Positions 1,072 to 31,598 of a stretch of DNA of 40,475 nucleotides are shown here, one piece after another. Location of the stretch: assembly GCA_026388655.1 (NCBI GenBank), contig JAPLJI010000049.1:1-40475 (forward strand). Direction: 5' to 3'. The stretch comes from Pseudomonadota bacterium (lineage in GTDB: Bacteria > Desulfobacterota > JAPLJL01). A program made the translations under genes and the position numbers. The notes beneath the pieces were generated by a model. That model saw only the letters and a list, made by a program, of their open reading frames with translations. It ran no database searches and was not told the DNA's origin. Positions within the stretch are counted from its first letter, which is position 1. Every line of letters starts with the position of its first letter.

Positions 1072-1130
1072 ATCTGGTTTCTTTGGTCTATCTGGTCTGT
1101 CTGTTTTCTTTGGTTTCTTTCGTTTTTATT
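1072..1130 (-). repeat. 9-bp tandem array (ACCAGATAG type)
   Basis: Read on the minus strand this is about six degenerate 9-bp units, including GACCAGATA, GACCAAAGA and AACCAAAGA. The array lies upstream of the minus-strand Fe-S gene that starts at 857, so the purine-rich strand is the sense strand of that gene. Confidence 0.75.
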
Positions 1131-1178
1131 CCGCAATCGTCATTCGTAAATCGTTAATCGTAAATTTTTATTAACTCG

Positions 1179-2744: not shown

Positions 2745-4703
2745 TCAGATTTTCCTGGCAATCTCCGCCGCCTCGGTAATAGCCTCCAGGGTTCTGCGTG
2801 GCTCGCTGGCATCGCCAATCACATACGTCTCGGCCACCCTGCCTTTGATCTCCGTTGACAGGTTGTCGACCGGTATTGCCCCCATCGCCAGAATAACGTA
2901 TTCAGCGCCGTGAACGGATTCCTCTTGTCCATCTCTTACGAAGACCACGCCATCATCGAGGATTTCCTTGACTTCGGCCCGGAGTTGAATCTGCACCCGC
3001 TTTTCCCGCAGCCTATCCAACAAGAGATGCCTTGGCTCGGCCATACTATCCAGGGCGACCGCATCTCGCATTTCCAGGATGGTGACATCAGTAGGAGCCG
3101 CCATGAGATTGTCACTCGGTTGCGCCAGAAAGTCGGCCGTTTCACAGCCGGTGAGGTTCCCGCCGATAATAACTGCTTTTCTGGCCGTTCCGGCCTCGTG
3201 TCCGCCCAGAACGTCCCAGGCGGTGACCACCGTGCCTTTATCGGTTCCCGGGATGTTTTTCGGCACCAGCGGTGAGGCGCCTGTGGCGACGATGACGACG
3301 TCTGGCCTTATCTTGTCTATGAGTTCGGGAGTAACCTCCTGGCCCAAAATCACTTTCACTCCTGCCTTTTGCACCTGGAGGGAAAGATACTTGATGAGCT
3401 GGCTGATCTCTTGCATAAACGGGGGAACGCTGGCGAGATTCACCTGTCCACCCAGTTTTTCCTTCTTCTCACAAAGAGTCACCGTGTGCCCTCTAAGGGC
3501 GGCGACCCGGGCCGCCTCAAGTCCCGCCGGACCTCCCCCGGCAACTAGGACCTTTTTCGGTTTTTCTGTAGGGACAATCACCATCTCCTTTTCCCTGCCG
3601 GCGGCGGGATTCACGGTGCAGGTCGCTTGCTGCCCCTGTTGGACTTTGCCGATACATCCGCAGTTGCACGCGACGCAGGGAACGATGTCCTCGAAGCGGC
3701 CCGCGGCGGCCTTGTTCGGCAGCTCCGGGTCGGCGTGGAGAGCCCGCCCCATAGACACCAGATCTGCCTTCCCGGCCTCCAAGACGAACTCCGCGATCTG
3801 GGGGCTGTTGATCCTGCCTACGCAGATCACCGGCACGTCAACCACTTGTTTAATGGCCTCCGCAAAGGGGGCGTTGAGGGCAAGCGGGGTTCCGGAGGGG
3901 GGGACGACGGCCCACATAACGGTGGGAACCGTTCCTCCCGATATTTCCAGGGCGTCTACGCCCGTATCGACCAGGATGCGGGCGATAAACTGGCTTTCCT
4001 GAAAGGTACGACCACCGGTCCGCCGCTCTTCTCCGGAGATCCGCACGATGATCGGGAAATCTTGGCCGACTCTTTTTCGGATCGCTTTGATAATCTCCAA
4101 AAGAAATCTGAGCCTCCCTTCCAGGGATCCGCCATAACTGTCCGTTCGCTTGTTGGAGAAAGGAGACAGAAAGGAACCCACCAAGGCATAGCCATGAGCG
4201 GCATGGATCTCCACGGCGTCCAATCCTGCTTCCTTCGCTCGGTGAGCCGCCCCCGAAAAATCTTCGATCATAGCCTCGATCTCACCGACGGAAAGTTCCC
4301 GGGGTACGTCTCGAAAGAGACCGCGTCCCACGACAGCGGAAGGGCCCACCGGCTGGATCCCGGTCAACATCTTGATGCCTTCCGGCCCGGGATCCATTAT
4401 CTGAACGGCCAGCTTGGCGCCGCGGCTATGCACGACCCTGGCGACCTGACTCCAGCTCTCGACCTGGGCATCATTGTAAAGGCCCAGCGGGAATAATCCG
4501 TATTTCCGATCGGGATGTATTCCGGCCGCCTCGGCAATGATCAGGCCCGCGCCTCCTTTAGCTCGAGCCTCGTAGTAATCGCGGAGCCTCTCCGAGACCG
4601 TCCCGTCCGCCATTCCGTAACTCAGGGTCATGGGAGGAAGGACAATCCGGTTCCTCACCTCCATGGCTCCAATCCGGATCGGCTTGAAAAGGTACTTTAG
4701 CAT
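2745..4703 (-). CDS. NADH:flavin oxidoreductase, 2,4-dienoyl-CoA / 2-enoate reductase family
   Basis: A full-length 652-residue enzyme of the old-yellow-enzyme plus FAD/NAD(P) class (FadH, 2-enoate reductase, BaiCD type). Residues 1-330 form the FMN TIM barrel, with the IHAAHGY motif near 166-172 and the SYGGS motif near 189-193. A [4Fe-4S] site follows (Cys 343, 346, 350, 362, with an extra Cys 348). Residues from about 380 form the FAD/NAD(P) module with a GGGPAG dinucleotide motif. Members reduce activated C=C bonds in enoyl-CoAs, enoates or steroids with NAD(P)H; the substrate here cannot be read from sequence. AAAGGAG lies upstream of the ATG at 4703. It is the first gene of a three-gene minus-strand operon with a Fe-S protein as likely electron partner (inference). 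Confidence 0.92.
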   Translation of the reverse strand: MLKYLFKPIRIGAMEVRNRIVLPPMTLSYGMADGTVSERLRDYYEARAKGGAGLIIAEAAGIHPDRKYGLFPLGLYNDAQVESWSQVARVVHSRGAKLAVQIMDPGPEGIKMLTGIQPVGPSAVVGRGLFRDVPRELSVGEIEAMIEDFSGAAHRAKEAGLDAVEIHAAHGYALVGSFLSPFSNKRTDSYGGSLEGRLRFLLEIIKAIRKRVGQDFPIIVRISGEERRTGGRTFQESQFIARILVDTGVDALEISGGTVPTVMWAVVPPSGTPLALNAPFAEAIKQVVDVPVICVGRINSPQIAEFVLEAGKADLVSMGRALHADPELPNKAAAGRFEDIVPCVACNCGCIGKVQQGQQATCTVNPAAGREKEMVIVPTEKPKKVLVAGGGPAGLEAARVAALRGHTVTLCEKKEKLGGQVNLASVPPFMQEISQLIKYLSLQVQKAGVKVILGQEVTPELIDKIRPDVVIVATGASPLVPKNIPGTDKGTVVTAWDVLGGHEAGTARKAVIIGGNLTGCETADFLAQPSDNLMAAPTDVTILEMRDAVALDSMAEPRHLLLDRLREKRVQIQLRAEVKEILDDGVVFVRDGQEESVHGAEYVILAMGAIPVDNLSTEIKGRVAETYVIGDASEPRRTLEAITEAAEIARKI

Positions 4704-4888: not shown

Positions 4889-4930
4889 ATTTCTGGTCTG
4901 TCTGGTCTATCTGGTTTCTTTGGTTTTCAT
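4889..4930 (-). repeat. 9-bp tandem array (ACCAGATAG type)
   Basis: On the minus strand the units read ACCAAAGAA, ACCAGATAG, ACCAGACAG, ACCAGAA. It is upstream of, and sense to, the flavoprotein operon. Confidence 0.75.
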
Positions 4931-7520: not shown

Positions 7521-7878
7521 TCTTCAAAAGAAATTGCGGATTGACGATTGCGGATCCTCCTACGCCTAGGCTACGGAGGACAAGTTGCGGAAGGGAAGAT
7601 AAAAAAACAGAGATTCTTCACTATGCTCAGAATGACAGGTAAAAAACAGTTTCGAGTTTATGGTTTCAGGTTAAACCCTATGCGCTCTGCGCTCTGCTCT
7701 CTGCTCCTTGCTAAAAAAGACCAGATAGACCAGAAAGATTTATCCCGTTTATCCCGAGTTCTGGGAGGGAAGAGTATGCTTCGAGGGACTAAACAGACCA
7801 AAAAGACCGGATCAATTGTCAGGAAAAAGATTTAAAACAACCCGCCTCATTTTTTAACCAGATTCAGGCTGAGAACAA
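7521..7878. other. Repeat region between tRNA-Asp and nikR
   Basis: No gene is supported. It contains GATTGACGATTGCGGAT-type sequence (7536-7555), an AGATTCTTC...CTCAGAATGACA module (7610-7639) and short nonamer stretches at 7720-7740 and 7788-7813, sense to the gene downstream. Confidence 0.55.
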
Positions 7879-12067: not shown

Positions 12068-12253
12068 ATATTTTCGATTGTAGATTGACGATTGTAGATT
12101 GAAAACCAAAGAAACCAAGAGAAATGACGACTTGTCCTGAGCGGAGTCGAAGGATTGACGATTGACGAATGAAAACCAAATGAACGCAATGAAGCCGTAT
12201 TATCCTTCCTTGTTTAGCCAACTTTTCTCGCATTTCTCGCAAGGGTAAAGCCA
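12068..12253. repeat. Intergenic repeats: GATTGACGATT module, nonamers, CTGAGCGGAGTCGAAG
   Basis: The stretch holds GATTGACGATT units (12085-12100, 12154-12168), nonamer units ACCAAAGAA and ACCAAATGA near 12105-12185, and one copy of the common CTTGTCCTGAGCGGAGTCG repeat between them. Confidence 0.65.
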
Positions 12254-22450: not shown

Positions 22451-22774
22451 CCGGAGGGGGAATCCATCTTCTTCGAACTGGATTCCCGCTGGAGTTTGTC
22501 CTGCCCCTCAGGGGTTCTCGTCCCGAGAACCCTTTCGGGGTCGAGGGAAGCGTAGTCGAAGGGCGGGAATGACATAGAATGGAAGGAATGGATTTCAACC
22601 GGGGTTTACCCATTTCAGCCGGTTCATTTTGTTCATCTGGTCTCTCCGGTCACCTGATGCCCTGATTTCCTTCATTTATTCTTGGGCTACCCGCAACCGG
22701 GCGCCGGCTGCTTGCCGCCGGCCGCCGAATATCCTTGCCAATCATTTTCCTTTGCTGATAAACTTATTCGGTCT
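22451..22774. other. Intergenic region before the barrel gene
   Basis: Besides the composite repeat, the rest (22580-22774) shows TTCATTTTGTTCATCTGG, a minus-strand-oriented nonamer-like stretch, and a GC-rich GGGCGCCGGC block. No gene is evident. Confidence 0.45.
22479..22575. repeat. Composite palindromic repeat
   Basis: CTGGATTCCCGC at the left and GCGGGAATGACAT at the right enclose a nested GGGTTCTCGTCCCGAGAACCC palindrome and a GTCGAAGG motif. It belongs to the same outer family as 35381-35475, with a different centre. Confidence 0.65.
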
Positions 22775-24274: not shown

Positions 24275-24335
24275 TAGAAACCAGTTTCGAGTTAAAGAAA
24301 ATTTACGATTGACGAATGACGATTGCGGAATGAAA

Positions 24336-24443
24336 ACCAAAGAAACTAAACAAACTAGATAGACCAAATAGACCAAATAGACTAAATAGACTAGAAAGAC
24401 TAGATAGACCAAACAGACCAGATCAACCAGATAAACTAGGAGG
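24336..24443 (+). repeat. 9-bp tandem array, 12 units
   Basis: Twelve consecutive nonamers with no indels run up to base 24443. The consensus is A-C-(C/T)-A-(A/G)-A-(A/C/T)-A-(A/G). Units include ACCAAATAG twice in a row and ACTAGATAG. The last unit is ACTAGGAGG. The array ends 22 bases before the thioesterase start and is sense to it, so it forms its 5' leader. Confidence 0.85.
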
Positions 24444-28620: not shown

Positions 28621-28916
28621 GGTGGTTTGGTAGTTAGGTGGCTGGAAAATACGAAGGATATCAGGCTACCAGGCTGTCAGGTTGTGTATATCAGGTTATC
28701 AGTTAACCAAAGAAACCAATGGAATTGACGATTGACGATTGTAGATTGACGATTTACGAATGGAAGAAAAGAGAGATTCTTCGCCTACGGTTTACACTGA
28801 GCAAAGCGAATGTGCTCAGAATGACACCCTTTAACCTTTAACCTTGAACGTTGAACGTTGAACCTTGAACGCTGAACCAGATGAACCAGGTAGACCAAAA
28901 AAACCAGAGAAACCAA
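28621..28916. repeat. Composite intergenic repeat cassette 1
   Basis: Modules in order: GGTGGTTTGGTAGTTAGG with AAAATACGAAGG (28621-28660, a relative of 39002-39050); ATTGACGATT units (28724-28762); AGATTCTTCGCCT...GCTCAGAATGACACCC (28773-28829); heptamers of TTGAAC type (28830-28875); and a nonamer array (28876-28925) that runs past the next start codon. The same order recurs at 31384-31580. Confidence 0.75.
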
Positions 28917-29750
28917 ATGAGCCAGAAAAAAGCAAGCGGCGAGCTGACTAGAAAGATCAAGCGAAAAACCCTGTCCCTCGGCGCGGACCTGGTCGGGATC
29001 GCCAGTCCCAAGGCGATGGAGAAATACCCGGATCAATACCAGTGGATCGAAAAGATCCTCCCGCCCCCCGGCACCAACGCCATCATCGTCGCGGGGGTCC
29101 GGATCCCTCCTTCCATACTCGAAACCTCCCGGGAAAACCCCCGGATCGCCCAGTTCTCCACCCAGGGTCTATACGCCAAGCTGATCCAGATCGCGCAGGA
29201 CCTTTCGCTTTTCCTCGATGACCTGGGTTACCGGTCCGCCGCCATCCCCACCCATCTCCCCGTTCCCATGACCGCGGAGGGCCTGGGGCTCAAGGCCGAG
29301 GTCTCCCACCGCCACACCGCGCTGGAGGCCGGCCTTGGCAACCTCGGGAAAAACGGCCTCCTCCTCACCCCGGAATTCGGCCCGCGGGTCCGCTTCGTCT
29401 CCATCCTGACCGACGCCCCCCTGGCCGCGGACAAACCCTTATCGAAACGGCTCTGCAACGACTGCCTGAAATGCGTTAAAGCCTGCCCGGTCCAGGCCAT
29501 CGGGGAGGATGGCAAGGTCAACGTCTTCGCCTGCGCCCCCAATATCCTCAAGCACGGGCTCCCGGGCCTGGTCCGCTTCGCCACCGAGATTGCCAAGGCC
29601 GATCTCGAGAAGAAAAAAGAGCTGATCCGGAGCCCGGAATTCTGGGAATACTGGCAGAACCTGAACACCGGGATTTTTTACTACTGTTTCGAGTGTCTGC
29701 GGGTCTGCCCGATCGGGAAGAAAAAGAAAACCATCAGAAAGCAGAAATAA
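28917..29750 (+). CDS. 4Fe-4S protein, epoxyqueuosine-reductase-like
   Basis: A 277-residue protein from the ATG at 28917. An upstream ATG at 28881 would add 12 residues encoded by the nonamer array and is unlikely. The N-terminal half resembles QueG-type cobalamin-binding sequence (GADLVGIAS, VSHRHTALEAGLGNLGKNGLLLTPEFGPRVRF). The C-terminal half has a ferredoxin cluster, CNDCLKCVKACP, then a second set, CFECLRVCP. It is probably a member of the QueG/reductive dehalogenase-like superfamily; whether it reduces epoxyqueuosine is unknown, and the second Cys set is placed atypically. No twin-arginine signal is visible, so it is cytoplasmic. Its start codon lies inside a repeat unit. Confidence 0.8.
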   Translation: MSQKKASGELTRKIKRKTLSLGADLVGIASPKAMEKYPDQYQWIEKILPPPGTNAIIVAGVRIPPSILETSRENPRIAQFSTQGLYAKLIQIAQDLSLFLDDLGYRSAAIPTHLPVPMTAEGLGLKAEVSHRHTALEAGLGNLGKNGLLLTPEFGPRVRFVSILTDAPLAADKPLSKRLCNDCLKCVKACPVQAIGEDGKVNVFACAPNILKHGLPGLVRFATEIAKADLEKKKELIRSPEFWEYWQNLNTGIFYYCFECLRVCPIGKKKKTIRKQK

Positions 29751-29931
29751 TAGATTGCTTCGTCGCGGAGTTTACACTGAACGAAGTGAATGTGCTCCTC
29801 GCAATGACGAAAGGAGGTGTCATTGCGAGCCCGACTTGTCCGACGAAGCCTTGGCGAAGTCGGAAGGGCGCGGCAATCTCAAAGTATACAAATGATACAT
29901 AGTCCCTTGAAATTTAATATTGGGATTCATT
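29751..29931. repeat. Palindromic repeat, CGCAATGACG/CATTGCGAG type
   Basis: CTCCTCGCAATGACGAAAG and GTGTCATTGCGAG flank a common intergenic repeat that ends GCGGCAATCTCAAAG near 29883. No gene is supported. Confidence 0.55.
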
Positions 29932-30945: not shown

Positions 30946-30947
30946 CC

Positions 30948-31003
30948 AACAGACCAACAGTCCAACAGACCAACAGCCCAGCAGTCCAACAGACCAGCCT
31001 CCC
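30948..31003 (+). repeat. 8-bp tandem repeat
   Basis: About six consecutive units near CCAACAGA, including CCAACAGT and CCAGCAGT, directly after the lipoprotein gene. The period is 8, unlike the 9-bp arrays, but the sequence type is similar. Confidence 0.7.
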
Positions 31004-31084: not shown

Positions 31085-31378
31085 ATGAAAGCAAATTGCC
31101 CGAAGGGAATGAAGGAAATTTTGCTCCACGAATGGAGTGATAAATTGAAATCGCTGGCCCACCCCGTCCGCCTGCGCATTGTCGAGGGCCTCTTGCGGGA
31201 TGAATGCAATGTGAAGAAAATTCAGGTGGATCTGGGACTGCCGCAGTCCACGGTCTCCCAGCACCTGGCGATCTTAAGAAAGGAGAAGATTCTCCGGGCC
31301 AAGCGGAAGGGAACCCAAAAATGTTATAAGGTGGTGGACCCCAGGGTGGCTGAATTGATCAGGTTGATCAGCAAATGA
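31085..31378 (+). CDS. ArsR-family transcriptional regulator
   Basis: A 97-residue winged-helix protein. The LKSLAHPVRLRIVEGLL helix, QSTVSQHLAILRKEKILRAKRKG recognition helix and wing, and KCYKVVDPRVAELI tail are of the ArsR/SmtB type. Cysteines occur in the first residues, in DECNVKK and near the end (QKCYKV), a possible metal or redox site, but the pattern is not that of the classic ArsR CxCxxC, so the ligand is unknown. It may regulate the preceding lipoprotein gene or others. The ribosome binding site is poor. Confidence 0.88.
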   Translation: MKANCPKGMKEILLHEWSDKLKSLAHPVRLRIVEGLLRDECNVKKIQVDLGLPQSTVSQHLAILRKEKILRAKRKGTQKCYKVVDPRVAELIRLISK

Positions 31379-31383
31379 AAAAT

Positions 31384-31580
31384 GTAGATTGACGATTGCA
31401 GATTGACGATTTACGAATGAAAGAAAAGAGAGATTCTTCGCCTTCCTCCTTCGCCAAGGCTTCGAAGGACAGGTCGGCTCAGAATGACACCCTTTAACCT
31501 TGAACGTTGAACACTGAACCAGATAGACTAGATAGACCAGATAGACCAGATAGACCAGACAGACCAGACAGACCAAAAAA
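31384..31580. repeat. Composite intergenic repeat cassette 2
   Basis: The same module order as at 28724-28925: ATTGACGATT units (31385-31420), AGATTCTTCGCCT...GCTCAGAATGACACCC (31429-31492), TTGAAC heptamers (31493-31516), then a nonamer array (31517-31580) with ACCAGATAG twice in a row. The middle of the second module differs between the copies (27 versus 33 bases). Confidence 0.78.
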
Positions 31581-31598
31581 CCCGAGGGGAGGTGAAAG

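Follow-up and report, generated by a model that had tools for sequence, protein, structure and literature searches.

Arrays of a degenerate nine-base intergenic repeat mostly face the next start codon in a draft bacterial genome and in distant lineages

Gaps between genes in the 40,475-nucleotide stretch of DNA analysed here (the window, which is contig 32 of the 3.56-Mb draft genome G000) carry tandem arrays of a degenerate nine-base repeat, designated R9, with the sense-strand unit ACCAGATAG and the consensus ACBARAYRR. The arrays lie predominantly on the sense strand of the following gene, and this observation, together with its replication in other lineages, is firm. Tentatively, and with a confidence that falls just short of even, we read R9 as a family of fast-turnover intergenic repeats whose strand bias is mainly the mark of an orientation filter operating in transcribed gaps.

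Two-unit matches to R9 with at most 3 mismatches number 18 in the window and 0 in shuffled sequence, which rules out a chance origin. Comparison of pattern matches with shuffles confirms the arrays that an earlier note, made from the letters alone, had placed near 1072, 4889, 7720, 28876 and 31517, and also the one near 24336, which does consist of 12 units and does end 22 nt before a start codon (ATG 24466; Table 1). The gene that begins there is thioesterase-like (Pfam YiiD_C), and a Shine-Dalgarno (SD)-like sequence lies inside the last unit of the array, ACTAGGAGG, at 24435-24443. A further stretch, near 12105, is present but weak, and the single one said to run the other way, near 22636, is indeed a weak antisense stretch; all of the others are sense to the next gene, both minus-strand cases included. 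Their description as lying just upstream of genes fits loosely for three of them, at distances of 221, 185 and 141 nt. The window genes behind R9 arrays have no common function (thioesterase, Fe-S protein, zinc ribbon, NikR, flavin oxidoreductase).

Table 1. R9 stretches of the window and repeat modules adjoining them
Feature	Position	Strand	Context or basis
R9 array, longest, 12 head-to-tail 9-mers	24336..24443	+	Sequence, repeat finder, pattern versus shuffles
R7a module (ATTGACG/AATGACG)	24305..24335	+	Directly 5' of the 12-unit R9 array
R7d module (AACTCGA, reversed: TTTCGAGTT)	24279..24293	-	Just past the upstream stop codon
R9 array, 7 units	31518..31580	+	18 nt before ATG 31599, zinc-ribbon protein gene
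Composite of R7a, GAGATTCTTCG..CAGAATGACA and R7b (TTGAACB)	31380..31517	+	5' of the array at 31518
R9 array, 6 units	28876..28929	+	Predicted start ATG 28917 inside unit ACCAAATGA
R9, two units	7720..7737	+	141 nt before nikR-like gene 7879; past two tRNA genes
R9, second stretch near nikR-like gene 7879	7788-7805
R9, 4 units	4889..4924	-	Sense to minus-strand gene 2745-4703, 185 nt upstream
R9, ~6 units	1079..1131	-	Sense to minus-strand gene 3-857, 221 nt upstream
Weak two-unit R9-like stretch (ACCAAAGAA ACCAAGAGA)	12105..12124	+	Sequence
Weak R9-like stretch, antisense	22622..22656	-	Between two plus-strand genes; sequence

Other repeats also lie in gaps of the window. A composite with the same order of parts (ATTGACG repeats, GAGATTCTTCG..CAGAATGACA, TTGAAC repeats, R9, start) is common to the gaps at 28718-28930 and 31380-31580; a dispersed inverted repeat of the GTCATTGCGAG..GGCAATCTC type lies between two genes at 29754-29885, and an array of the eight-base unit CCAACAGA stands immediately past a stop codon at 30946-30996. 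Predicted start codons fall within an R9 unit (ACCARATGA) at window position 28917 and at three further loci of the analysis (L046:13982, L058:9338 and L290), and R9 arrays may thus donate start codons.

R9 pattern matches across the whole of G000 number 138. Orientation was tabulated in a 588-kb sample of that genome which includes the window (40 stretches, 33 picked around arrays and 7 irrespective of them), with genes assigned by a purpose-built codon-usage caller, long ORFs that it had missed added later, and start codons that are predictions throughout. With one array, the longest, counted per gap between two same-strand genes, and with the added ORFs included, 29 are sense and 8 are antisense (p = 7.5e-4; p-values are nominal, since the arrays of one genome may share descent), and random orientation is thereby excluded. 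The corresponding ratio in two congeners (G001 and G002) is 15:5. This is not a property of gap repeats in general: four families of the G000 sample have no significant bias (sense:antisense 7:10 for TTGAACB, 5:4 for AATTAGA, 8:6 for CTCAGAATGACA and 10:21 for AACTCGA, p = 0.07), and ATTGACG, a frequent immediate 5' neighbour of R9, is likewise sense-biased (25:5). Nor is it a replication-strand effect: orientation tracks the gene strand, and genes on the C-rich strand give 9:1. A general rule by which A/C-rich strands lead to starts and G/T-rich strands to stops was also rejected in G000 (mean -0.038, p = 0.13); the effect of this kind in N. moscoviensis is due only to gaps with arrays. A control with the pattern written backwards is uninformative, since reversing the R9 unit only rotates it. 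At one locus (L040:63-6258) four long plus-strand ORFs fail the codon model of the genome and are perhaps foreign; R9 nearby is antisense to them.

R9 is not confined to the upstream side of genes. Among gaps of 60-600 nt in G000, again with the added ORFs, it occupies 31 of the 248 whose flanking genes are co-directional, 4 of the 37 that are divergent and 4 of the 26 that are convergent, so that gaps holding a start are not enriched (35/285 for all gaps other than convergent ones). The alternative that arrays might be equally common downstream of genes is therefore partly borne out, in that convergent gaps carry them equally often. For ten proteins that flank convergent and antisense cases, both flanks of four convergent gaps among them, Pfam gives a clear match on the strand that was called. 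Several of the antisense arrays in G000 sit 4-14 nt past a stop codon. On the first gene calls, R9 arrays point with their 3' end to the nearer gene edge in 39 of 55 G000 cases and in 48 of 57 cases from Nitrospira loci; the same edge polarity holds for TTGAACB (24/29) and AACTCGA (33/43), and the opposite one for ATTGACG (13/50). These counts describe gaps as assemblies of modules with set polarity. The order of modules is often reversed AACTCGA, ATTGACG, R9, start, and junctions into ACC recur, following GGAATGAAA, TTCGAGTTA or GTAGGAGG.

Individual arrays do not last. Orthologous genes in G001 and/or G002 (coding identity ~82-95%) were available for 21 R9 sites, and because only 6 of these keep R9 in a congener, on the same strand every time, the arrays are not conserved gene-specific regulatory sites; a conserved leader, one form of the selected leader that the earlier note had entertained, has left no sign. 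The number of units differs at one kept site (2 versus 8). Orthologous gaps that lack R9 usually hold other sequence, often repeat text such as CCTATGACC or GAAACTCGAAACT. Other repeats occupy the congener gaps at L280, L225 (the ortholog of window 31378-31598), L294 and L298, and the replacing repeats often form an inverted pair, GGTCATAGG after the stop and CCTATGACC before the start, which resembles the R9 pairs of Nitrospira described below. A mobile, MITE-like element is not indicated, since orthologous gaps in these two close relatives contain other text and no clean empty site; array length and the 5' neighbour vary from site to site, and the arrays have no defined ends. We infer that slippage and recombination drive this turnover.

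A scan of the genomes of 84,980 species with three exact degenerate units places R9 in distant lineages. Among the matches listed are Nitrospira (including the complete N. moscoviensis chromosome), Syntrophales, other Deltaproteobacteria, Methylomirabilis, Aquificota, WOR-3 and Aerophobetes, as well as Bacteroidales with a slightly different ACTAGA form. Outside the genus, 33 of 36 genomes of the same phylum have matches, at most 20 each; those listed are scattered, mostly with three mismatches, and read as background, G011 (20 matches) being left out of this statement. N. moscoviensis has 187 matches at no more than 2 mismatches. In all groups except Bacteroidales the unit hardly varies at positions 1, 2, 4 and 6 (A, C, A, A), and the variation at positions 3, 5, 7 and 9 follows a similar pattern; this shared profile is partly forced by the seed pattern for the named genomes. 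In 342 kb of N. moscoviensis sense outnumbers antisense 36:6. Nitrospira loci, in part from that chromosome, give 16:7, Syntrophales 15:0, other Deltaproteobacteria 9:0, a mixture of other phyla 10:1 and Bacteroidales 2:4. Since few or none of the other gap modules occur in the loci sampled from lineages outside the genus, the bias there is no by-product of the composites of the window genus. Intergenic R9 arrays also occur on viral-labelled contigs (L246, L249, L252 and L254; two of them with near-identical arrays), which may be phage or host DNA.

What the orientation might do was approached by a flip test, in which an array is swapped in silico for its reverse complement and the opening energy of the SD/start region is computed, on the first gene calls. 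Flipping is costly in two of four data sets: the opening energy rises from 10.3 to 14.4 kcal/mol in N. moscoviensis (cost 4.1, p = 7e-6) and from 10.9 to 13.8 kcal/mol in the other phyla (cost 2.9, p = 0.003). There is no significant effect in G000 itself (11.7 versus 10.3; 1.4, p = 0.46) and no cost in the congeners (n = 7). The notion that an array improves the accessibility of the start was rejected, native and shuffled arrays being equal in opening energy. The simplest reading is a filter, in which sense arrays do no harm as leaders and antisense arrays close to an SD are apt to be harmful.

On the reading preferred here, R9 arrays are degenerate short tandem repeats that colonise gaps, their unit number changing and whole arrays coming and going quickly; in the window genus R9 is one of several repeat families, with units of 7-9 bases, from which the gaps are built. 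A ACCAGATAG strand near a start would yield unstructured RNA and leave the SD/start region open, and the complementary strand, CUAUCUGGU, U/G-rich, could pair with the purine-rich SD region. Antisense arrays near starts would then tend to vanish, the survivors lying mainly past stop codons or in convergent gaps, and sense units could mutate into an SD (ACTAGGAGG) or come to hold the start codon (ACCAAATGA). That selection on translation causes the bias is about as likely as not, and it is only in this weak form, with antisense arrays near starts seemingly selected against, that a selected leader survives. Filtering near starts is weakened as an explanation by the gene-edge polarity of arrays in convergent gaps, which a filter acting at starts alone does not predict, by the bias that some neighbouring modules (ATTGACG) share, and by the flip test, which gives no significant effect in G000 or its congeners; it also leaves the recurrence of one degenerate unit in distant phyla unexplained.

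Nitrospira suggests another reading, in which an array forms one arm of an RNA hairpin between cistrons that separates or protects them, and in which the window genus has lost the stop-side arm or has another module in its place. Simple outward inverted pairs make up 31 of the 42 R9-bearing co-directional gaps of N. moscoviensis, laid out as stop, (CTATCTGGT)n, short loop, (ACCAGATAG)n, start. Many of the loops are 6-7 nt long, 18 of 42 pairs (L255-L274) have TTCG or CGAA at the loop, and three Nitrospira pairs fold 5.0 to 8.5 sd better than shuffles. The arms average 57 nt on the start side and 29 on the stop side, the start-side arm being the longer in 29 and the shorter in 2 of the 31 decided pairs. 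Against a hairpin, the arms do not covary: mirrored identity is 0.688 versus 0.709 for random, and since mirrored arms are no more alike than random ones neither compensatory change nor recent copying is indicated. G000 has two inverted pairs, both weak, the G001 and G002 loci have none, and the two window leaders put through folding are unstructured; the hairpin reading is improbable. The unequal arms, along with the nearly fixed positions of the unit in several phyla and the sense bias throughout those lineages, speak for arrays as sites for a conserved RNA- or DNA-binding factor, used as leader elements through which translation of the following gene is tuned. For the TAACTGA repeats considered below, the proposed binders are ribosomal protein S1, a cold-shock protein or a Csr-like protein (MacGregor 2015, PMC4679880). 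The shared unit is indirect support for the protein-binding site that had been suggested for the window, and the seed pattern in part imposes it; rapid turnover, arrays in convergent gaps as often as in start-holding ones, the lack of a shared function among the window genes and the lack of any opening effect beyond composition all tell against such a factor, which we consider rather unlikely. A combination of the two ideas, in which ACBARAYRR arrays are an mRNA module common to these phyla that a ribosomal or other RNA-binding protein, likewise shared, recognises and that sets translation or separation of cistrons, single-stranded in the window genus and the Deltaproteobacteria and as hairpins with a longer start-side arm in Nitrospira, is improbable.

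Orientation could also be kept with no selection on RNA at all, if template switching or conversion, at the shared ACC and at the GGAGG before starts, copied modules between gaps, so that a start-side module would retain its direction. The recurrent junctions into ACC, the stereotyped order of reversed AACTCGA, ATTGACG and R9, the polarity of several families toward gene edges and the wholesale replacement of gap text between congeners are what such a copying bias would leave behind; yet no clean donor-acceptor copy could be traced, and lineages with few or none of the other modules show the R9 bias too. Insertion bias, the remaining suggestion of the earlier note, is possible within the composite blocks of the window genus and does not account for the bias of lineages without such blocks. 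Copying is unlikely.

No published description of R9 was found in the open-access literature. The closest known system is the TAACTGA heptamer, whose direct repeats are found in marine Beggiatoaceae, Cyanobacteria and Bacteroidetes (MacGregor 2015, PMC4679880). Like R9, these are short intergenic direct repeats that mostly face the next start codon, a forward orientation that R9 shares in G000 (29:8) and in other lineages; both are scattered patchily over distant phyla, precede genes of no common function and change their unit number in step between relatives. R9 differs in that its unit is a degenerate nine-base sequence and not a strict heptamer, in its composites with other repeats, in the Nitrospira inverted pairs and in its fast replacement between congeners. 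It also lies upstream of the SD, whereas TAACTGA repeats replace or overlap it; an SD of at least 4 bases is found at 16 of 30 array genes versus 201 of 452 genes overall in G000, and at 18 of 45 versus 156 of 289 in N. moscoviensis. The multicopy heptanucleotide elements of Geobacter metallireducens are intergenic tandem heptamers proposed as regulator sites (PMC2700814); their sequences are others (GGACCGG, MTYCTGA), and the part of that paper drawn on here describes no strand rule. Nitrospira R9 resembles REP/BIME-type palindromes in being a strongly folding intercistronic inverted repeat, but its arms are tandem 9-mers of unequal length that do not covary, and window R9 has no palindrome. 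Phase-variable simple sequence repeats likewise have tandem units of changing number; R9 has degenerate nine-base units scattered among many unrelated genes, and its change is seen between species only.

Short tandem repeats that face starts have been noted before in a few bacteria, without explanation. Here a single degenerate unit obeys a single orientation rule in several distant phyla, repeat families of the same gaps do not obey it, and the bias comes with a testable reason. The arrays also serve as a warning that orientation toward a gene is not by itself sufficient for inferring a regulatory site. Nitrospira moscoviensis makes the question testable, being a named species whose complete chromosome holds many R9 copies.
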